Positions 12,959 through 23,196 of a DNA stretch of 64,000 bases are shown piece by piece. Every line of letters starts with the position of its first letter. Position 1 is the stretch's first letter. The position numbers and the translations under genes are program-made. Source of the stretch: Balneolaceae bacterium (lineage in GTDB: Bacteria; Bacteroidota; Rhodothermia; Balneolales; Balneolaceae); assembly GCA_017640665.1 (NCBI GenBank), contig JAEPQE010000002.1, positions 806,001 to 870,000 of the forward strand, in the 5' to 3' direction. The notes beneath the pieces were generated by a model. The model had not been told where the DNA came from. It did no database searches and saw only the letters and a program-made list of their open reading frames with translations.

Positions 12959-13078
12959 GCATTTGAATTGGTTTTTTAATCCCTGGTTGAAAGCCTGATC
13001 TGAAAGTTGTTATGAAGAGTGAACTCGTTGAGCTGTATTACATTAAATTGTTCTATAGTTACAGAATATTCAATAAAA

Positions 13079-13321
13079 CTACTTCTCTGGGCTAAGCAAT
13101 TCTATATGAAATCTGAATCGCTCTTGCTCTAATGACATGGTTTCGTACACTTCACGAATCAATGTAAAAACGGTGGCAGTATCTCCGATTACGGTACTTG
13201 ATAGGTAACCAATTTCGATTTTAACATCGTATTGAGCTAAATGCTCAATCAATTCCTGTACTTTTTCAGTGGGATTGTGTGTTGCTAGAGGAATAAAGGT
13301 TAGTTGGGCAATTGTAGTCAT
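13079..13321 (-). CDS. MTH1187/YkoF-type thiamine-binding family protein
   Basis: 80 residues with a compact ferredoxin-like pattern: opening strand TIAQLTFIPL, helix TEKVQELIEHLAQ, strand KIEIGYLSSTVIGD, helix TVFTLIREVYETM and strand RFRFHIELL. Order and spacing match the MTH1187/YkoF family (thiamine or HMP-binding). No thiamine biosynthesis or transport gene is adjacent, so the ligand is unconfirmed. It points away from the his operon, with 150 bp of shared upstream region before the leader peptide. Confidence 0.6.
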   Translation of the reverse strand: MTTIAQLTFIPLATHNPTEKVQELIEHLAQYDVKIEIGYLSSTVIGDTATVFTLIREVYETMSLEQERFRFHIELLSPEK

Positions 13322-13459
13322 TGTAAGCTTTTTTGATAGTAAAACTGAATTCTATGTTTTTAGTGTGTTTGTCAAGGGATTTTGAACGCTTTCACGTTCC
13401 AATAAGTTTACGAATTTGAAATATTTAAAAAATGGTTTCCTCATAAATAATCTAATCCC

Positions 13460-13467
13460 TATATTTG
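13460..13467 (+). promoter_or_regulatory. -7 promoter element of the his operon
   Basis: TATATTTG matches TAnnTTTG exactly and ends 4 bp before the GTG of the leader peptide. A weak TTTC at 13436-13439 lies 20 bp upstream in the -33 position. If used, the mRNA would begin at or within a few bases of the leader start codon, so the leader could be translated leaderless. Confidence 0.5.
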
Positions 13468-13471
13468 CCTC

Positions 13472-13546
13472 GTGAAAAACAAAAGATTACATAACGCCCA
13501 TCATCTTCATCATGGTCTCCATCATGGACACCACCACGTGCACTAA
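13472..13546 (+). CDS. hisL: his operon leader peptide (24 aa, 11 His)
   Basis: A short frame starting GTG and ending TAA encodes MKNKRLHNAHHLHHGLHHGH followed by HHVH; 11 of 24 residues are His, clustered in the second half. It sits 69 bp upstream of hisG in the same direction, just after a -7 promoter element. Histidine-rich leaders control his operons by attenuation: ribosome stalling at His codons when charged tRNA-His is scarce lets transcription continue. Both CAT and CAC codons are used. GTG is the only reasonable start, because an in-frame TAA lies at 13448. No Shine-Dalgarno sequence precedes it. Confidence 0.88.
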   Translation: MKNKRLHNAHHLHHGLHHGHHHVH

Positions 13547-13615
13547 TTATAGCACCAACTGTTTTTCAATCCTTTTTCTAACACATCTTATTAATTCTTT
13601 TTACTTACTGATTTC
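13547..13615 (+). promoter_or_regulatory. probable attenuator region between leader peptide and hisG
   Basis: These 69 nt contain 15 C and only 3 G, with T-rich tracts and little ability to fold. The single modest hairpin is GTG-CTA/TAG-CAC around the leader stop (from 13538), followed by GTTTTTC. No strong intrinsic terminator like that of enteric his operons is seen. C-rich, G-poor, unstructured RNA just after a short translated frame suits Rho loading, so Rho-dependent attenuation is my inference. Confidence 0.45.
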
Positions 13616-14497
13616 ATGAACCGAACGAAAGATTCTTCGACTTCTTTACGAATTGCCATTCAAAAAAGTGGCCGCCTGACTGATAAAACCATCGATTTAC
13701 TACATGGCATTGGCGTTGAGTTTGATAACTATAAACGAAACCTGATGGTTAAAACCCGCAATTTCGATGTCGAGCTTTTATTGCTACGAGACGATGACAT
13801 CCCCGAATATGTACAAGACGGAATTTGTGATTTAGGTTTTGTAGGAGCTAACGAGGTTTTTGAGAAAGATGCTGATGTTACAGTACTAAGAGGCCTTAAT
13901 TATGGAAATTGCCGCCTTTCTATAGCCGCCCCTAAAGATGGCACATTACAGGACGCGTCCGACTTTGAAGGTAAAACCATTGCCACTAGTTATCCCTACT
14001 TAACCAATAAGTTTTTCCAGGATCAGGGAATTAATATAAATATTGTTGAGATTTCCGGAGCGGTTGAAATTACTCCTCAGCTGGAAGTAGCGGATGCGAT
14101 TTCAGATTTAGTTTCAACTGGTGGAACGCTTCGGGCTAATGGTCTCCAGGAGTTATTCACAATTCTGGAATCTGAAACCAAGCTCATTCAAACAAATAAA
14201 GAACTTTCACCTGGTAAGCAACAGCTTGTTGAAAAGTTTTTAGTTCGAATTGATGGATATCAGCAGGCAAAAAAGAGCCGGTATATAATGATGAATGCAC
14301 CATTGGAAAAAGTGGACTCAATCAGTAAAATCATCCCATCTATGAAAAGTCCTACGATAGTTTCTCTTGCTGAATCTGATATGGTAGCTATACAAACGGT
14401 AATCCCGATTAATAAATTCTGGGAAGTAATGGAAGAGCTTAAAGAAGCTGGCGCTTCTGATATTGTGATGCTGCCCATAGAAAGTATGATTCTATAG
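13616..14497 (+). CDS. hisG: ATP phosphoribosyltransferase (long form)
   Basis: 293 residues; first step of histidine synthesis (ATP + PRPP). The N-terminal catalytic part has [35 protein letters not shown] and [14 protein letters not shown] (the PRPP-binding loop). A C-terminal ACT-like regulatory domain of ~75 residues ([19 protein letters not shown] to the end) marks the long, self-regulated HisG type, so no hisZ is needed. The ATG at 13616 follows the attenuator region. The final domain should give histidine feedback inhibition. hisD follows 25 bp later. Confidence 0.97.
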
Positions 14498-14522: not shown

Positions 14523-15809
14523 ATGAAATTATACCGGTATTCATCACTTACAGAATCTGAAATTGGCAGGCTTATTCAACGACCAAAAATGGACTTCACT
14601 TCTGTCTTCGGGATCGTTGAACCTATTCTGAATCAGGTTGAGCAAGACGGAGATAGTGCATTAAAAGCTTTGACTAAAAAATTTGAGAGAGCAGATTTAG
14701 ACGCTGTTACCCTCAATCCTCATGAAATTAGCGCTTCTCTACCTGATGAGATTAAAAGCGCGATAGATACCGCCTTCGAAAACATTTCCGCTTTCCACAA
14801 AGCACAACAAGTAACTCCTTTAGAAGTTGAAACGATGAATGGAGTTACCTGCCGAAGAGTAACACGTCCGATTGAGAGAGTTGGATTGTATGTACCTGGA
14901 GGTACAGCTGTTCTCCCTTCTACGGCTATGATGCTCTCTGTCCCGGCTATGCTTGCTGGTTGTTCAACAGTAGTACTTGCCACCCCACCGCAATCTGATG
15001 GAACCATTGCTCCTGAAATTATTTACATCGCTCAAAAAGCCGGTATCGAAACCATCCTCCTGGCCGGTGGCGCTCAGGCTGTTGCTGCAATGGCTTATGG
15101 AACAGAATCAGTACCCAAAGTGGATAAGATTTTTGGTCCCGGAAACCAGTTTGTAACTGCTGCAAAAATGATTCTGCAAAACAGCGAGGCACAAATCAGT
15201 ATTGACATGCCTGCCGGTCCTTCAGAAGTCTTAGTGATTGCAGATAGTGAGGCGAATCCGGCTTATGTAGCCGCTGATTTACTCTCTCAGGCAGAGCATG
15301 GTGCCGATAGTCAGGTAGTTCTTGTCGCTACATCAGACTTTGATTTATCTGCGCTTGAGAAAGAACTAGAAGCCCAGCTAAATCAACTCCCGAGAAAAGA
15401 ATTTGCGTCTGATGCACTGGAAAACAGTTTTACTTTGGTGGTGAATTCATTAGGCGAAGCTTTTGATTTTTCAAACAAATATGCGCCGGAGCACTTAATT
15501 GTTAATGTTCGGGATGCAGAAACTTACCAGGACAAGATTTTAAACGCAGGTTCTGTGTTCTTTGGGCAATTTACTCCCGAAAGTGTTGGGGACTACGCTT
15601 CCGGAACTAATCACACACTTCCAACTTATGGTTATGCCAGAATGTACAGCGGAGTGAATCTTTCGTCTTTCCAGAAATCCATTACCATGCAAACATTGAC
15701 GGAACAAGGAATTAAGAATATTGGTCCAACTGTGGAAGTACTAGCTGAGCTCGAAGGACTTCAGGCTCACAAGAATGCCGTACGCATAAGATTGAAGGAT
15801 TTAGAATGA
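14523..15809 (+). CDS. hisD: histidinol dehydrogenase
   Basis: 428 residues, the standard length. A Zn-dependent cytoplasmic enzyme oxidising L-histidinol to histidine with 2 NAD+. Family signatures are present: [57 protein letters not shown] (Gln/His zinc ligands) and the histidine pair region [18 protein letters not shown]. The start ATG at 14523 gives a normal N terminus. It lies 25 bp after hisG. hisC follows after 79 bp holding a small hairpin. Confidence 0.97.
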
Positions 15810-15888: not shown

Positions 15889-16950
15889 TTGAAAAAAAAA
15901 ATCGACATACCATCATTGGTCAGACCAAACATCATGGACTTAAAACCATACCGAAGTGCACGAGACGACTTCGATTCCGGTATCCTATTAGATGCAAATG
16001 AAAACTCCTTGGGTGCTCCGTTTGAAGATACGCTAGAACTCAACCGATATCCGATGCCCTACCAGGAAGAGCTTCGTGCTAAGATTGCTGATTTTCGGGA
16101 AGTCAACCAGGAAAATGTTTTTGTGGGTGTTGGAAGTGATGAAGCTATCGATCTTCTATTCAGGATTTTTTGTGAACCGGGAAAAGACCGGGTTTTAATT
16201 ACTCCTCCCACCTATGGGATGTATAAAGTCTCCGCTGCAATTAATAATGTGACTGTAGATGAGGTTTTACTTTCTGAAGATTTTCAGCTTTGTGTTGTAG
16301 AAACTCTTTCAGCAGTAACTGAGAATACTAAACTAATCTTTCTGTGTTCACCGAATAATCCAACCGGTAACAGCCTTAATACTGAAGATATTTTGACCGT
16401 GGCAGATAGGTTTGATGGAATTTTAGTTCTTGATGAAGCCTATATCGATTTCAGCGAACGAGCCAGTTTTGCGAAAGATATTCTGAATCGAAATAATCTG
16501 GTAATTCTGCAAACTATGTCAAAGGCATTTGGTTTGGCAGGTATAAGATTAGGAGTTGCTTTGGCTGATCCACAAGTCATTGATTTTATGATGAAGGTAA
16601 AGGCTCCTTACAATGTGAATAAACTTACTTCCAAAGCAGCGTTAAGGGGTTTCAATTATATCAATGTGATGAGAGAGAAAGTTGATCAAATTAAATCTGA
16701 GCGGGAAAAAGTTATTCACAAGCTTAATCTCATCCCTGAAATTCAAAAAGTCTATCCCACAGACGCTAATTTTCTGATTTTTAAAATTAAAGATGCGATA
16801 ACCATCTACAAGAAAATGGCTGAACTAGGAGTTGTGATTCGCTACCGTGGCAACGAACCACATTGTGAAAACTGCCTTAGGCTAACTATTGGAACACCAC
16901 AGGAAAATATGCGCTTTTTTGAGGCGCTTGAAAAAGTATTAGAGGATTAA
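15889..16950 (+). CDS. hisC: histidinol-phosphate aminotransferase
   Basis: 353 residues. A PLP enzyme, fold type I aminotransferase. The pyridoxal Lys is K212 in QTMSKAFGLAGIRLG. Other signatures are LDANENSLG, YPMPYQEELR, SPNNPTGN and LDEAYIDF. Start: TTG at 15889 followed by a run of AAA codons (MKKKID). The next in-frame ATG is at residue 15 (PNIMDL) and would clip the family N terminus, so TTG is preferred. Its 3' end overlaps the stop of the antisense doxX gene by 4 bp. Confidence 0.95.
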   Translation: MKKKIDIPSLVRPNIMDLKPYRSARDDFDSGILLDANENSLGAPFEDTLELNRYPMPYQEELRAKIADFREVNQENVFVGVGSDEAIDLLFRIFCEPGKDRVLITPPTYGMYKVSAAINNVTVDEVLLSEDFQLCVVETLSAVTENTKLIFLCSPNNPTGNSLNTEDILTVADRFDGILVLDEAYIDFSERASFAKDILNRNNLVILQTMSKAFGLAGIRLGVALADPQVIDFMMKVKAPYNVNKLTSKAALRGFNYINVMREKVDQIKSEREKVIHKLNLIPEIQKVYPTDANFLIFKIKDAITIYKKMAELGVVIRYRGNEPHCENCLRLTIGTPQENMRFFEALEKVLED

Positions 16951-17339
16951 CCTGCTTTGGATAACCTCTCACCAATAACAGGAATGTCTGCTCTGTGCAG
17001 GAAAAGCAAAACTGCACAGCTTATAAATACCACGATTGCAATCGCAAACAAAGTTCCTCCATCGCCTTGTACTTCTATGCCAAGTACGGTTAAGTGGCTC
17101 ATAATTGCTCCTGAAATTACCCCTAGTCCTATTACGGCACCAGCCCAGGTAGTGCGTGGAATCAATAACAAAACTGAAGCGATTAACTCGGCCACACCAG
17201 AGGCATATCTGCCAAAAGGCTCCATTCCAACTTGTTCAAAGATGTATATACTTTCAGGAGCACCGGAAAACTTAAAAAATAAAGTCTGGAGCATAATGGC
17301 TGCTGCTACTAGTCTAAGCACCCAAATAAAAATTTTCAT
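16947..17339 (-). CDS. DoxX family membrane protein, antisense within the his operon
   Basis: 130 residues with four predicted membrane helices (about 5-20, 45-62, 65-83 and 95-115). DoxX/DoxD-like signature residues include FFKFSGAPES and ASGVAELIASVLLLIPRT. Family members are small membrane proteins, some linked to quinol oxidation or redox stress; the exact role here is unknown. It is transcribed opposite to hisC and hisB, between them, overlapping the last 4 bp of hisC. A through-transcript from hisC to hisB would be fully antisense to it. Confidence 0.85.
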   Translation of the reverse strand: MKIFIWVLRLVAAAIMLQTLFFKFSGAPESIYIFEQVGMEPFGRYASGVAELIASVLLLIPRTTWAGAVIGLGVISGAIMSHLTVLGIEVQGDGGTLFAIAIVVFISCAVLLFLHRADIPVIGERLSKAG

Positions 17340-17431: not shown

Positions 17432-18328
17432 ATGAATCTTTGGATTGAGGCAACACATTTAATCACCGGGAATAATAAGAAAGTACTTGGCAAAGGTGTT
17501 ATCAGCTTTCTTTCTGAATTAAAACAAGACGGATACCTTATTTCAGCTGATAAAAGCTCATTCACTAAGCAACAGATAAGATTACTCAATCACGAAGATC
17601 TATTGACTGATTTCGATCCAGAAGAAAAAAAAGCTTTTATTGAGTATGATAAAAGTGAAGGGAAATTTGAATTCTGGGTTGGAGAAAATGTAATTGCTTC
17701 GGGTTACGATTTGGAAGAGCTTCTTAACTCCTACAAAAAGGGAATTCAGAGAACAGCCTCTCTTGAACGAAAAACCAACGAAACGGATATTCGAATCTCA
17801 TTGAATCTGGACGGAACCGGTACATCAAGTATCAAAACTGGATTGAATTTCTTTGACCACATGCTGGAGCAGATTTCACGTCATGGACTCGTTGACTTGG
17901 ACTTAACTTGTGAAGGTGATCTTGAGGTTGACGAGCATCACACCATTGAAGATGTAGCTATTGCATTAGGCGAAACCATTACACAAGCTTTGGGCGATAA
18001 AAAAGGAATCGAACGATACGCCTTTGTGCTACCCATGGATGAAGCTCAGGCAATGGTGGCAATGGATCTTTCCGGGAGACCTTTTCTTGTTTTTGAAGGC
18101 GAGTTCAATCGTGAGTACGTTGGAGATATACCTACAGAAATGATTAAGCATTTTTTCTACAGTCTTGCTATGAACCTAAAGGCAACTCTGCATATTGAAT
18201 TCAAAGGAGAAAACGATCACCATAAAATTGAAGCTATCTTCAAAGGTTTTGCCAGGGTATTGAAAACAGCTGTAGAGAAAAACCCCAGGATAAAAAACCA
18301 AATTCCGAGTTCGAAAGGGGCTCTTTAA
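17432..18328 (+). CDS. hisB: imidazoleglycerol-phosphate dehydratase with degenerate N-terminal HAD domain
   Basis: 298 residues. From about residue 110 this is a normal IGPD: GLNFFDHMLEQISRHG, DEHHTIEDVAIALGE (metal-binding HHxxE at 169), DLSGRPFLVFEGEF and NDHHKIEAIFKGF. The first ~105 residues sit where the histidinol-phosphatase of bifunctional HisB lies (about 165 residues in E. coli). They keep only a HAD-like outline (strand-helix GVISFLSELKQDGYLISADK). The nucleophile motif DxDGT is replaced by IEATHLI, and the Cys/His zinc loop is missing. The phosphatase half should therefore be inactive. A separate phosphatase must supply that step elsewhere. Confidence 0.93.
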   Translation: MNLWIEATHLITGNNKKVLGKGVISFLSELKQDGYLISADKSSFTKQQIRLLNHEDLLTDFDPEEKKAFIEYDKSEGKFEFWVGENVIASGYDLEELLNSYKKGIQRTASLERKTNETDIRISLNLDGTGTSSIKTGLNFFDHMLEQISRHGLVDLDLTCEGDLEVDEHHTIEDVAIALGETITQALGDKKGIERYAFVLPMDEAQAMVAMDLSGRPFLVFEGEFNREYVGDIPTEMIKHFFYSLAMNLKATLHIEFKGENDHHKIEAIFKGFARVLKTAVEKNPRIKNQIPSSKGAL

Positions 18329-18335
18329 CTTCATC

Positions 18336-18422
18336 TGTCATTTAGAAGAAACAAACAGACTGAGAATCAAGAAATTATGCTTAACACTGATTTTTAGATT
18401 TCTCCCTCTGGTCGAAATGACA
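18336..18422. repeat. interspersed palindromic-ended repeat, copy 2 (between hisB and hisH)
   Basis: An 87-bp element bounded by TGTCA (18336) and TGACA (ending 18422). Its right end TAGATTTCTCCCTCTGGTCG continuing to GAAATGACA is the reverse complement of the left end of the 6007-6085 copy. Insertion of this element between two his genes has created a spurious in-frame ATG at 18417 for hisH. Confidence 0.65.
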
Positions 18423-18434
18423 CACAACAAATCC

Positions 18435-19031
18435 ATGATTGCACTTATCAAATACAAAGCTGGTAATATAGCCTCGGTCTCAAACGCGTTAGATCGGTTG
18501 GAAGCGGATTACTTTCTTGCGGAAACACCTGAACAGCTGGATTCGGCAGATGGGGTTATATTCCCTGGAGTTGGCCATGCATGGTCAGCCATGGAATCCC
18601 TAAAAGAAAACGGTATTGATGAATGGCTGAAAAAAACCAAAAAACCAGTGCTTGGTATCTGTGTAGGGATGCAGTTATTATTCGAGTCATCCAGTGAGGG
18701 AAATACCATAGGACTTGGGGTAATACCCGGATCGTTGGCTAAGTTTGATGAAAGCAAAGCTAAAGTACCTCATATGGGCTGGAATACTTTTTCAAAAAAA
18801 AGCGAGCATCCACTACTTAAGGGAATTGATTCCAGTGAATTTTTGTATTTCGTGCATAGCTACTATGCTCCTGATAACGAATTTGCTGTGGCAAGTTGTG
18901 ATTATATCAATCCGTTTATCGCAGTGGTTGCTAAAGACAATTATTTTGGTGTTCAGTTTCACCCAGAAAAATCAGGTGCCACTGGCGCTAAAATCCTGAA
19001 GAATTTTCTGGATTTCGTATATCAAAATTAA
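18435..19031 (+). CDS. hisH: imidazole glycerol phosphate synthase, glutaminase subunit
   Basis: 198 residues from the ATG at 18435 (MIALIKYKAGN). An in-frame ATG at 18417 lies inside the dispersed repeat and would add six residues absent from the family, so it is rejected. Class I glutamine amidotransferase: VIFPGVGHAW, nucleophile Cys in LGICVGMQLLFE, and the His-Glu of VQFHPEKSG. It feeds ammonia to HisF, which is not present in this window. hisA follows after 20 bp. Confidence 0.96.
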   Translation: MIALIKYKAGNIASVSNALDRLEADYFLAETPEQLDSADGVIFPGVGHAWSAMESLKENGIDEWLKKTKKPVLGICVGMQLLFESSSEGNTIGLGVIPGSLAKFDESKAKVPHMGWNTFSKKSEHPLLKGIDSSEFLYFVHSYYAPDNEFAVASCDYINPFIAVVAKDNYFGVQFHPEKSGATGAKILKNFLDFVYQN

Positions 19032-19051: not shown

Positions 19052-19768
19052 ATGAAAGTTATCCCAGCCATAGACCTGCTTAACGGGCAGTGTGTTCGCC
19101 TTCATAAGGGCTCTTATGACGAGGTTACCGTATATAACGAATCACCACTTGGCCAAGCTCAGGAATTTAAAAAAGCAGGCTTCTCTCATATTCATATTGT
19201 TGATTTGAATGGTGCCAAAGAAGGACATTTCGTAAATCTTCCTCATATTAAACAGGTAATAAAAGAGCTCGACATTTCGGTGCAAACCGGTGGTGGAATC
19301 CGAACCTTTAGCGATGCCGAGTATCTCTTGGAGCAAGGTCTCTCGAAAGTAATTTGCAGTTCTATGGCCGTAAAGAATGAACCGGATTGGCTCAAACTGC
19401 TTACAAAATATCCCGATCGAACAATTTTGGGAATGGATCTAAAAGATGGAAAAATCGCTTATGGAGGTTGGTTAGAAACAGCTTCAGAATCTGTTGATTC
19501 CTTTGTTTCCCGAATGATTGAAAGAGGACTTAAAGAAATATTATGTACCGATATTTCAAAAGATGGTACACTTTCAGGGCCCAACCTTGAACTTTATGTT
19601 GAGCTGAAATCAAAATTCCCTGAAATACATTTAATTGCTTCGGGAGGCGTTTCATCTATGGAAGATTTACAAAATCTGAATTCAAATAATATTGATGCTG
19701 TTGTAGTTGGTAAAGCCTACTACGAGAAAAGAATTTCTCTTTTGGAAATGAAAAGCATTACTAGATAA
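19052..19768 (+). CDS. hisA: phosphoribosyl-formimino-AICAR ribotide isomerase
   Basis: 238 residues; an Amadori-rearrangement TIM barrel. Catalytic Asp residues sit in VIPAIDLLNG (strand 1) and LCTDISKDGTLSGPN (strand 5). Phosphate-binding loops are HIVDLNGAKEG, QTGGGIRT and IASGGVSS. It lies directly after hisH and is the last his gene visible; hisF and hisIE do not follow. The next gene starts ~94 bp later behind its own promoter-like elements. Confidence 0.97.
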   Translation: MKVIPAIDLLNGQCVRLHKGSYDEVTVYNESPLGQAQEFKKAGFSHIHIVDLNGAKEGHFVNLPHIKQVIKELDISVQTGGGIRTFSDAEYLLEQGLSKVICSSMAVKNEPDWLKLLTKYPDRTILGMDLKDGKIAYGGWLETASESVDSFVSRMIERGLKEILCTDISKDGTLSGPNLELYVELKSKFPEIHLIASGGVSSMEDLQNLNSNNIDAVVVGKAYYEKRISLLEMKSITR

Positions 19769-19799
19769 TCAATTTAACAGCACCCATTTTATACAATAT

Positions 19800-19815
19800 T
19801 AGATTTGTAAATTTG
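19800..19815 (+). promoter_or_regulatory. tandem TAnnTTTG elements before the 7TM-HD gene
   Basis: Two adjoining matches, TAGATTTG (19800-19807) and TAAATTTG (19808-19815), fit the -7 consensus upstream of the ATG at 19862. The -33 regions are weak. They would separate expression of the 7TM-HD/xerD pair from the his genes. Confidence 0.38.
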
Positions 19816-19861
19816 AGTCGGGTTAGTAAACTTGTACCAAAATCTAAAACGGCTGTACCTC

Positions 19862-22282
19862 ATGGGTTTACTTGAAAAATTTGGCCTGGGCAGGAAGAAG
19901 AAAGAAATGGTTCCACTGCTCGGCGAAAAAATGAAAAAGGAACAGGAAGCTTATTCTCTAAGGAGAAATCCTTACCTGCGCGCATTCATCTTCCTTTGTT
20001 TTATTCTTATCTCTGTTTTTTCCCTTCCGAGAACTTCTGTCCGGTCAACCTTTAACTATACCGTTGGTCAGCCTTGGAGAGTTGATGATTTAACTGCTCC
20101 GTACACCTTCGCTCTCAAGAAAACAGCTGAAGAAATCGCAACCGAACGCGAAACTATCGAGGAGCAACTTTCCCCTATTTTTGTTGTAGATGTAGGAGCA
20201 CCCATAGCAGTCCAAACCCGACTTGACTCCCTTTACCGAACACTTCAACCTGTCCTCGAAACCTATAACGACTGGCAAACAGCTAAAGATGATAATAGTA
20301 CAACGGTACTTGATGACAGTCTGAGATTCAGCCGTGAGTATGAACAATCAAACATTGGTCTCACCGATTTTTCTCTTAATACCCTGCTCTTAAGTTATCA
20401 CCAGGTGAAGAGCAGGAATCTACCTGATAACCGGTTTAGCGGCATTATTGTAAAACAAAGCCTTGAAAATGTGATAGATGATCTGCTCAATCAAGGAATT
20501 ATTAATGTTAATAAAGCCAATATAGAAGCCGATCAAATTACCATACTAAATCCTTCACAAAGTACAGAACAGCCTATAGATATTGCTCGCGTCCGGGATT
20601 TAAGAGGAGCGAATGAGTATGCTCAGTTTCAATTAAACAGAATGCTCTCCGAAGAGCTGGCAAGGCTTGGAATAGAGCTTTACAATAAAGTGATCGCTCC
20701 CAACTTTAAAATCAGTGAAGAACGCAGGCAAGCACGTTTGGATGAAGCCATTGCCAATATTTCAGAGACAAAAGGAGCGATGGCCCAGGGGCAAGTAATT
20801 ATCCGCCGTGGCGATATTGTAAACGAGGAAACCGCTAATATACTTGCCAGCCTTGATGAAGCCAGATCATTAAATGCTTCAGACATGGAACGCTGGCTGC
20901 GTTTTGGAGGTGGAGTAATACTTGTTATCGTCATTTCGATGGTCTTCTTCATGTACTTATATCTTTACCGTCGAAAAATCAGTGGCCATAATGGATTATT
21001 CTTTCTGGTTTTCTTAACACTTAGTTTAATTAGTATTGCTACTGCAGTTGTTGTTACACTAGATGTAGCGCATCCTTATATCATCCCTGTTGCAATCGCT
21101 CCTATTATCTTAACCATTATCTTTGATTCTCGGGTCGGAATCATCGCTTCGGTTACGCTCGCCTCCTTAATAGGATTGGTTCACGGCTATAACTTCGAAT
21201 TTACTATTACTACCATAGCAGCATGTTCCATGGGGGTTTTTTCCGTGAGAGATGTAAAAGATCGCTCCCAGTTCTTCTTTACTACTCCCGGTATTGTCTT
21301 TCTTACTTACGTGATTACGATGGGCGCCTTCAGCCTGGCCAGAATGGATGGATGGGAAGTTGTTCTGAATAATTTGATGTTCATTGCTATTAACTCAGTA
21401 TTCATTTTGTTTACCTATCCAATCATTCTTCTTTTTGAAAAACTGTTTGGTGTTACTACCGATTTCACCCTGCTCGAACTGGGTGATACAAATCAGCCGT
21501 TGCTTAAAGAGCTTATGAACAAAGCACCTGGGACGTTTCATCATAGTTTACAAGTGGCCAACCTCTCTGAAGCCGCAGCTTCTGCGATTGGGGCCAATTC
21601 TTTATTAAGCAGGGTTGGAGCTCTGTATCACGATATCGGGAAAATGATTAAGCCCGATTATTTTGTTGAAAACCAGTCAGGTGGGGTAAACGAGCATGAT
21701 AAGCTAAAGCCCCAAATGAGTGCAATGGTGATAAAAGCACATGTAAGTGAAGGCGTAAAAATGGCGGAGGAACACAAACTTCCAAAGACGCTTATCCACT
21801 TTATCGAAACACACCATGGCACTTCCACCATCAGATATTTCTATGAAAAGGCAAAAAACGATGATAATCTGAAGGAAATTCTGGAAGAGGAACAATTCAA
21901 ATATGATGGACCTCTCCCTTCCACTAAAGAAACAGGTATTTTGTTATTAGCTGATGGAATTGAAGCCGCATCCAGAGCTATGAAGAATCCAACCTATAGT
22001 AAACTGGAAACTCTTGTTCACCGAATGGTAGACGACCGTGTATCAGAAGGTCAATTAAGTCATTGTCCTCTTACTTTCCGTGATTTACAAGTGATTAAGG
22101 AAACGTTTCTAAACATCCTGGTCGGCGTGTATCACAGCCGGATTGAGTACCCTGAAGATCAAAAAAGAGAACAGGAAGAAGCTGAAAAAGAAGCAGCAGC
22201 AAATACAGAGAAAGCAGATGAACAGAAAGAAAATTCTGCTGAAAATCAGGAGTCACAGGAAGAGGAATCTCAACAACAATAA
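19862..22282 (+). CDS. 7TM-HD family cyclic-di-AMP phosphodiesterase (PgpH-like)
   Basis: 806 residues from the ATG at 19862 (MGLLEKFGLG); an upstream in-frame TTG at 19832 would add ten residues. A short cytoplasmic start precedes one membrane helix (AFIFLCFILISVFSL) and a large extracytoplasmic 7TMR-HDED domain (about 60-340). Seven membrane helices follow (about 350-530). A cytoplasmic HD domain carries FHHSLQVANLSE, ALYHDIGKM (HD pair near residue 590), ETHHGTST and LLADGIEAASRAM. This architecture is that of PgpH, which degrades c-di-AMP. A Glu/Gln/Lys-rich tail ends the protein. xerD starts 3 bp after the stop. Confidence 0.92.
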   Translation: MGLLEKFGLGRKKKEMVPLLGEKMKKEQEAYSLRRNPYLRAFIFLCFILISVFSLPRTSVRSTFNYTVGQPWRVDDLTAPYTFALKKTAEEIATERETIEEQLSPIFVVDVGAPIAVQTRLDSLYRTLQPVLETYNDWQTAKDDNSTTVLDDSLRFSREYEQSNIGLTDFSLNTLLLSYHQVKSRNLPDNRFSGIIVKQSLENVIDDLLNQGIINVNKANIEADQITILNPSQSTEQPIDIARVRDLRGANEYAQFQLNRMLSEELARLGIELYNKVIAPNFKISEERRQARLDEAIANISETKGAMAQGQVIIRRGDIVNEETANILASLDEARSLNASDMERWLRFGGGVILVIVISMVFFMYLYLYRRKISGHNGLFFLVFLTLSLISIATAVVVTLDVAHPYIIPVAIAPIILTIIFDSRVGIIASVTLASLIGLVHGYNFEFTITTIAACSMGVFSVRDVKDRSQFFFTTPGIVFLTYVITMGAFSLARMDGWEVVLNNLMFIAINSVFILFTYPIILLFEKLFGVTTDFTLLELGDTNQPLLKELMNKAPGTFHHSLQVANLSEAAASAIGANSLLSRVGALYHDIGKMIKPDYFVENQSGGVNEHDKLKPQMSAMVIKAHVSEGVKMAEEHKLPKTLIHFIETHHGTSTIRYFYEKAKNDDNLKEILEEEQFKYDGPLPSTKETGILLLADGIEAASRAMKNPTYSKLETLVHRMVDDRVSEGQLSHCPLTFRDLQVIKETFLNILVGVYHSRIEYPEDQKREQEEAEKEAAANTEKADEQKENSAENQESQEEESQQQ

Positions 22283-22284
22283 CC

Positions 22285-23196
22285 GTGAGATTTAAACAAG
22301 AACTGGATCTATACCTTCAATTCATAAAACTTGAAAAAGGTCTTGCTAATAACTCTATCGTCTCCTACGAAAATGATCTAAACCGATATCTTCAATTTCT
22401 GTTGGTCGAAAAAAAGATAACTGATTTAGCAGGAGTTACCCTTTCTCATATTGAAGATTTTCTAAACTATCTGATTGACCATGAGCTACTTTCCGCAGGA
22501 TCGTTAGCCAGAAATATCTCAAGTATCCGTGGCTTTCATGAATTTGCTGTTGTCGAAGGAATTACGGCTGCTAATCCCGCTGAATTGATCGAGCTTCCAA
22601 AAAAAGCGGAGAAATTACCGGAGATATTGGATCCTCAGGAAATTGAGGCTATGCTTGAAACTCCGGATATCGAAAAACCGGCCGGGATTCGGGATAAAGC
22701 AATTCTTGAATGTTTGTATGGAACCGGAATGCGGGTAAGCGAACTCACTGATCTGGAGACTGACCGTTTGTTTTTTGAGATTGGATTTATCCGGGTGATT
22801 GGAAAAGGAAGCAAAGAACGATTGGTGCCTGTAGGGGAAATTGCTCAGGAAGCTCTGGAGCATTATATCGAGCGAGCCCGCCCCCTTTTTTTTAACCCAA
22901 AAAAAGCAGATAAAGCCAGAAATAAAGTCTTTCTGAATCAACGAGGCGGGGCATTAACCCGAATGAGTATCTGGAATATCGTTCAAAAAGCAGCCCAAGA
23001 AGCCGATATCAAAAAGAAAGTATATCCACATATATTCCGGCATTCATTTGCAACCCATCTGCTGGAAGGTGGCGCTGATTTGCGGGCAGTTCAGGAAATG
23101 CTGGGACATGCGTCTATCCTAACAACTGAGATTTACACCCACGTGGATCGGTCCTTGCTTCATCAAACGCATAAAGAGTTTCACCCAAGAGGATAA
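22285..23196 (+). CDS. xerD: site-specific tyrosine recombinase (XerD type)
   Basis: 303 residues, GTG start 3 bp after the previous stop. All catalytic residues are present: R150 (YGTGMRVSEL), K174 (GKGSKERLVPVG), H249/R252 (HIFRHSFATHLL), H275 (LGHASI) and nucleophile Y284 (TEIYTHVD). The N-terminal SAM-like core-binding domain spans about 1-105. Length and motifs match chromosomal XerD, which resolves chromosome dimers at dif with XerC and FtsK. The lack of other mobile-element genes nearby supports a housekeeping role. XerC versus XerD assignment is from similarity of pattern only. Confidence 0.9.
   Translation: MRFKQELDLYLQFIKLEKGLANNSIVSYENDLNRYLQFLLVEKKITDLAGVTLSHIEDFLNYLIDHELLSAGSLARNISSIRGFHEFAVVEGITAANPAELIELPKKAEKLPEILDPQEIEAMLETPDIEKPAGIRDKAILECLYGTGMRVSELTDLETDRLFFEIGFIRVIGKGSKERLVPVGEIAQEALEHYIERARPLFFNPKKADKARNKVFLNQRGGALTRMSIWNIVQKAAQEADIKKKVYPHIFRHSFATHLLEGGADLRAVQEMLGHASILTTEIYTHVDRSLLHQTHKEFHPRG

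Follow-up and report, generated by a model that had tools for sequence, protein, structure and literature searches.

Upstream of the histidine biosynthesis operon of a Balneolaceae bacterium we found a short His-rich leader frame that is conserved across the family, lies at a constant distance from a promoter box and is followed by a C-rich, G-poor spacer without an intrinsic terminator. In all likelihood, as judged from the sequence comparisons, a ribosome reading the His codons is the sensor half of an attenuator. For the output half Rho is our first choice, followed by translational control, weak intrinsic termination and mRNA stability, in this order, and with slightly less than even confidence we propose that the his operon is controlled by a histidine-responsive, ribosome-mediated attenuator with Rho as its effector. 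All coordinates refer to the window, which is the whole stretch of 64,000 nucleotides that was analysed, and features lie on its forward strand unless indicated otherwise.

The leader frame, its promoter and the his operon

The leader runs from a GTG at 13472 to a TAA at 13546 and encodes VKNKRLHNAHHLHHGLHHGHHHVH, with 11 His among its 24 amino acids, and its stop codon is separated from the hisG start at 13616 by 69 nt. The GTG start, the 24 residues with 11 His and the distance to hisG had been described in an earlier note on this DNA. Among the 1239 short ORFs of the window it has the highest His content (46%, with 24% for the runner-up), and in 50 shuffled windows, where the highest His fraction was 36% and the mean of the maxima 25%, the 46% of the leader was never reached. 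A chance origin is excluded because the leader is conserved across the family, and its invariant His codons have 0, 0 and 3 variable sites at codon positions 1, 2 and 3, respectively.

HisG was present in 87 of 92 family genomes, and the regions 5' of hisG were read for 70 of them. An unambiguous His-rich leader of 18-29 aa was found in 57 of these and a diverged one in seven (six of genus g19, and G035), no convincing His leader was seen in the four with a divergent HisG (42-45% identity), and two of the upstream stretches end at a contig end. The named relatives include Balneola and Gracilimonas, which places the family as Balneolaceae. The comparison within the family that the earlier note had proposed as a check puts the leader before the long-form hisG in nearly all genomes examined, and its assignment to hisG holds family-wide and agrees with the same kind of leader in other Bacteroidota. 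In 37 of 47 non-redundant species, codon 7 is the first one for His. A leader that is rich in codons for the amino acid produced and lies directly 5' of the operon corresponds to the functional class of ribosome-mediated amino-acid attenuators. His-rich peptides bind metals, and the peptide might itself be a functional product, for example in metal binding, or a relic without a regulatory role, which we consider highly improbable in view of the constant position before hisG, the constant promoter distance across the family and the corresponding leaders, with terminators, in other members of the phylum.

The -7 promoter box TATATTTG at 13460-13467 is an exact match to the Bacteroidota element TAnnTTTG and ends 4 nt 5' of the GTG, as the earlier note had stated; a putative -33 region, GGTTTCC, was assigned from its position at 13434-13440. 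In 27 of 47 relatives a TTG precedes the -7 box by 23-25 nt, but the window itself has GGTTT there. The 47 non-redundant leaders start with GTG (33 leaders) or ATG (14 leaders), the TAnnTTTG-like box mostly precedes a GTG by 4 nt and an ATG by 5 nt, and none of the other box-to-start distances tried in these leaders gave a comparable number of matches. In Flavobacterium johnsoniae the box spans -12 to -5 relative to the transcription start (PMC6847099), and its position is the same in F. psychrophilum (PMC9723704); combined with the spacing found here, this predicts +1 at the first base of the GTG. By this analogy, and from the promoter-to-start spacing across the family, the his leader mRNA is probably leaderless, with +1 at the GTG or no more than one or two bases away, which lends support to the near-leaderless mRNA suggested in the earlier note.

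Genome-wide, 33 sites match TAnnTTTG-N4-GTG and 31 match its reversed pattern; for the ATG form the two counts are 298 and 262. Because these counts are near those of the reversed patterns, the leaderless layout is not generally enriched, and at the loci scanned, which were part of the pattern hits, no further leaderless short ORF was conspicuous for a strong amino-acid bias. No clear leader of this kind was seen at ilvB. About 3.7% of the 5' UTRs of B. thetaiotaomicron are shorter than 10 nt (PMC7366714) and 5.5% of F. psychrophilum mRNAs were leaderless (PMC9723704). In a phylum where leaderless mRNAs are rare, the leader is a candidate for regulated leaderless translation.

The his cluster has the order hisG-hisD-hisC-hisB-hisH-hisA. 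The first gene, hisG (13616-14497), is of the long form with the C-terminal domain (TIGR00070 and TIGR03455 above cut-off), and is followed by hisD (14523-15809, TIGR00069), hisC (15889-16950, TIGR01141), hisB (17432-18328, with the IGPD domain), hisH (18417-19031, TIGR01855) and hisA (19052-19768, TIGR00007). About 105 extra N-terminal residues, without a Pfam domain match, precede the IGPD domain of hisB, and a small DoxX-like gene on the reverse strand (16947-17339) splits the cluster between hisC and hisB. Among the ORFs listed for 19769-23000 there was no hisF or hisIE directly after hisA, which is followed by an HDIG protein and a tyrosine-recombinase-like ORF. Upstream of the leader a divergent ORF of 80 aa (13079-13321, reverse strand) weakly matches thiamine-binding proteins.

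Intrinsic terminators in Balneolaceae and in other Bacteroidota

Textbook attenuators are built on an intrinsic terminator. The terminator scan of the window gave no terminator-like site at 13000-14000, and the hairpin-plus-T-tract energy scan found no intrinsic terminator between leader and hisG in 57 relatives, so that the lack of a strong terminator at this place, read from the window in the earlier note, extends to the family. Without a terminator at this place, termination of the classical kind is excluded. Among 40 further Bacteroidota genomes sampled, 24 had a His leader before hisG, usually with a GC-rich hairpin and a U-run after it; those sampled genomes in which HisG has only about 33% identity yielded no His leader. 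The median of the best terminator-like energies was -16.2 kcal/mol in 25 outgroup species versus -3.8 kcal/mol in the 57 Balneolaceae; three of the 25 (G178, G188 and G257) were judged by eye to be without a convincing terminator. In the sister family, which belongs to the same order, the terminator is kept in two of four genomes, at -16.6 and -17.3 kcal/mol. Because a terminator is usual in the outgroups and present in two sister-family genomes, it was probably lost on the Balneolaceae branch, with leader plus terminator as the likely ancestral state. That the ancestral intrinsic-terminator His attenuator was turned into a Rho-dependent, leaderless one on this branch is possible, but rather doubtful.

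By eye, trpE had a Trp-Trp-Trp leader followed by a CCCACTG...AGTGGG-kind inverted repeat and a T-run in all eight Balneolaceae examined. As the Trp leader has retained a GC-rich terminator, intrinsic termination works in Balneolaceae. With the His sensor apparently kept and its terminator apparently lost, and with that of the Trp attenuator retained, the family offers a natural comparison for a change in the output stage of an RNA switch. A TATATTCG-like box precedes the start of the Balneolaceae trpE leader (L182-L189) by about 7 nt, and five trpE loci that were scanned gave no match to Rfam RF01692 (Bacteroid-trp) at E 0.1.

RNA helices, spacer composition and the output of the attenuator

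Leader and spacer together fold more stably than dinucleotide shuffles, with a z of about -2.7 to -3.0 in the window and a mean z of -2.1 across 47 sequences (35 of 47 below -1). The isolated 69-nt spacer folds to only -0.2 kcal/mol. The earlier description of the spacer as unstructured therefore applies to the isolated spacer but not to the spacer in context, where covarying helices tie its 5' part to the leader end and, in the clade of the window, to the leader start. The window exceeds its shuffles mainly because UGUUUUUCA pairs with UGAAAAACA. RNAalifold on full alignments recovered some of the helices only, and because it was limited by differing loop lengths the helix arms were tested directly; artificial alignments of the P3 arms joined with filler were left out of the evidence.

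P1 (13514-13532) is a hairpin within the His codons, GGUCUCC with GGACACC around the loop AUCAU, found by folding and covariation; its covariation score was matched by 1 of 500 shuffles (18 sequences). P2 (13538-13555) pairs the last leader codons with the spacer start and holds the leader stop codon in its loop, with only 4 bp in the window, GUGC (13538-13541) with GCAC (13552-13555). Cognate P2 arms paired better than species-swapped arms with p = 5e-5 overall and 0.007 within genera, values that, like the other permutation p-values given here, are optimistic because the species are interrelated and shared ancestry is ignored. Compared with shuffled spacers, P2 had -5.9 versus -3.8 kcal/mol (sd 0.27). 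Genus g19 can form a longer version of P2 with 12-13 bp, GGGGAUUUGUGC/GCGCAAAUCCCC, which encloses the leader stop (L017, L021, L022, L028 and L032). A possible competing pairing, GCGCA/UGCGC, lies 3' of this long helix, and the two are possibly an alternative switch architecture.

P3, found by folding and the cognate-pairing test, joins a 5' arm, UGAAAAACA (13473-13481), which overlaps the leader start codon, to a 3' arm in the spacer, UGUUUUUCA (13560-13568). Cognate pairing was supported with p = 5e-5 in 11 species of g1, g2, g6, g8 and g21 and weakly in g3 (p = 0.02). As P3 was unsupported in g4, g5, g11, g14 and g17 (p 0.46-0.78), it cannot be the general mechanism, and it was rejected as a family-wide element. 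In genus g3 a P1-like hairpin and a second hairpin both covary. Covariation supports P1, P2 and P3 as structures that may depend on the ribosome position, but no mutually exclusive terminator pair was found.

These helices bear on the explanation that P2 or P3 with U-rich runs after it acts on RNA polymerase without Rho, by weak or unusual intrinsic termination or by pausing. Some g4 species have P2 (GUGCA/UGCAC) with CUUUUU directly after it, and the covarying hairpin UGUAGC-GCUACA of genus g3 lies near a U-rich run. The energies are small (median -3.8 kcal/mol), however, the hairpin of the window has no U-tract directly after it and the same genomes carry a proper terminator in the Trp leader, which together make this explanation distinctly unlikely.

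The spacer (13547-13615) has 15 C and 3 G in its 69 nt, as counted in the earlier note, lacks an intrinsic terminator and is a candidate Rho loading region; its C-rich, G-poor composition is kept in the family. Between -60 and -10 the hisG spacers have 26% C and 4.8% G. The corresponding values are 18.5% and 14.6% for the upstream regions of 28 window genes, a comparison set that may include hisG itself. The C/G ratio was at least 3 in 41 of 47 hisG spacers versus 2 of the 28 comparison genes, and G content is 1-2% from -10 to -40. C-rich, G-poor and little-structured RNA is what Rho loading calls for, and Rho is encoded in all eight family genomes tested. Two Rho-like proteins, a full-length one (frame of about 554 aa, over cut-off) and a shorter one (about 410-436 aa, below cut-off), occur in each of the eight; in the source genome the two lie at G000:C1:1143120-1144241 and G000:C2:561741-563354. 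The composition is no more than suggestive, as it fits a Rho loading region but also plain avoidance of structure, and it may only keep the hisG start region open. Control through Rho loading on the spacer, as put forward in the earlier note, is plausible, and would make the leader a candidate for Rho-based attenuation in Bacteroidota.

The same region could be a target of translational attenuation, in which the ribosome position affects not transcription but how accessible the hisG start, or the U-rich region before it, becomes. No terminator was found in the 57 family members scanned, the 3' arm of P3 takes up part of the pyrimidine-rich region upstream of hisG, and leaderless polycysteine ORFs of mycobacteria are said to regulate downstream translation (cited in PMC9031893). 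We nevertheless regard translational attenuation as unlikely, because most of the hisG start region is free of pairing in the full transcript (mean unpaired 0.62) and the spacer offers hardly any G for a sequestering helix.

In the Rho-dependent attenuator that we prefer, a ribosome would load on the bare 5' end of an mRNA that starts with the GTG or one or two bases from it. With charged His-tRNA scarce, it would dwell on the His codons, the first of which is codon 7, and keep the start region out of P3; P1 and P2 would form ahead and transcription would proceed into hisG. With plentiful histidine it would get to the stop codon in the P2 loop and then depart, and the freed 5' end would pair with the spacer as P3 in the clade of the window, which should block re-initiation. 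Closure of P3 would leave the C-rich, G-poor leader and spacer free of ribosomes, and Rho would most likely load and end transcription upstream of hisG or near its beginning. The greatest problem for a role of Rho is the early stall: a ribosome halted at codon 7 exposes the later leader and the spacer rather than covering them, so that the sign of the Rho effect would rest on masking by P1, P2 and P3. Alternatively, the ribosome position could set whether the 5' end is closed in P3 or open and thereby, through mRNA stability, the hisG level, in line with the first transcribed bases taking part in P3; we think this very unlikely, since the leader is family-wide but P3 is clade-limited.

Relation to known attenuators

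Every component described here has precedent, and the combination appears new in the open-access literature, where we found no report of a Balneolaceae His attenuator, of a terminator-less one or of this combination. The Rfam covariance models (T-box, other known riboswitches and RF00514) gave no credible match in the family, and with the terminator missing as well, a classical his attenuator of the RF00514 type was not found in it. With the enteric hisL (RF00514) the Balneolaceae leader shares the His-codon leader directly before hisG and a leader end able to pair with the spacer as long as the ribosome is stalled further 5', but it has neither an intrinsic terminator nor a competing terminator segment and is probably leaderless. 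The His leaders of other Bacteroidota likewise precede the long-form hisG at a similar distance, but they have a strong GC hairpin with a U-tract, and where a promoter box can be made out it is further from the leader start. One of them gave a weak RF00514 match of 33.7 bits, below the gathering score of 49. In tnaC and speF, whether Rho gains access depends on where the ribosome stands on a short ORF, and small molecules are sensed via the nascent peptide; the ribosome position on a short ORF is the likeness to the Balneolaceae leader, for which we infer the role of Rho, whereas here codon-specific starvation would be expected instead of nascent-peptide sensing. A study of F. psychrophilum mentions leader-peptide attenuation of amino-acid operons generally (PMC9723704), and for this reason the classical form is probably partly known in the phylum.

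Leaderless leader frames are also known from other bacteria. In C. glutamicum ilvBNC, a single nucleotide separates +1 from the leader start, and shielding of the leaderless start codon by a hairpin has been proposed (PMC11857589), as P3 would do here, but the leader has Ile/Val/Leu codons and a classical terminator hairpin. The trpL transcript of S. meliloti begins with the leader ATG (PMC7298713) and so resembles the Balneolaceae leader in being leaderless, but this is a Trp leader, and its attenuation releases the sRNA rnTrpL. In mycobacteria, according to a review that cites Canestrari 2020 (PMC9031893), leaderless polycysteine short ORFs lie upstream of regulated genes; they too are leaderless short ORFs with a run of one regulatory codon, but that codon is for Cys instead of His, the phylum is another one and the action reported there is on translation.
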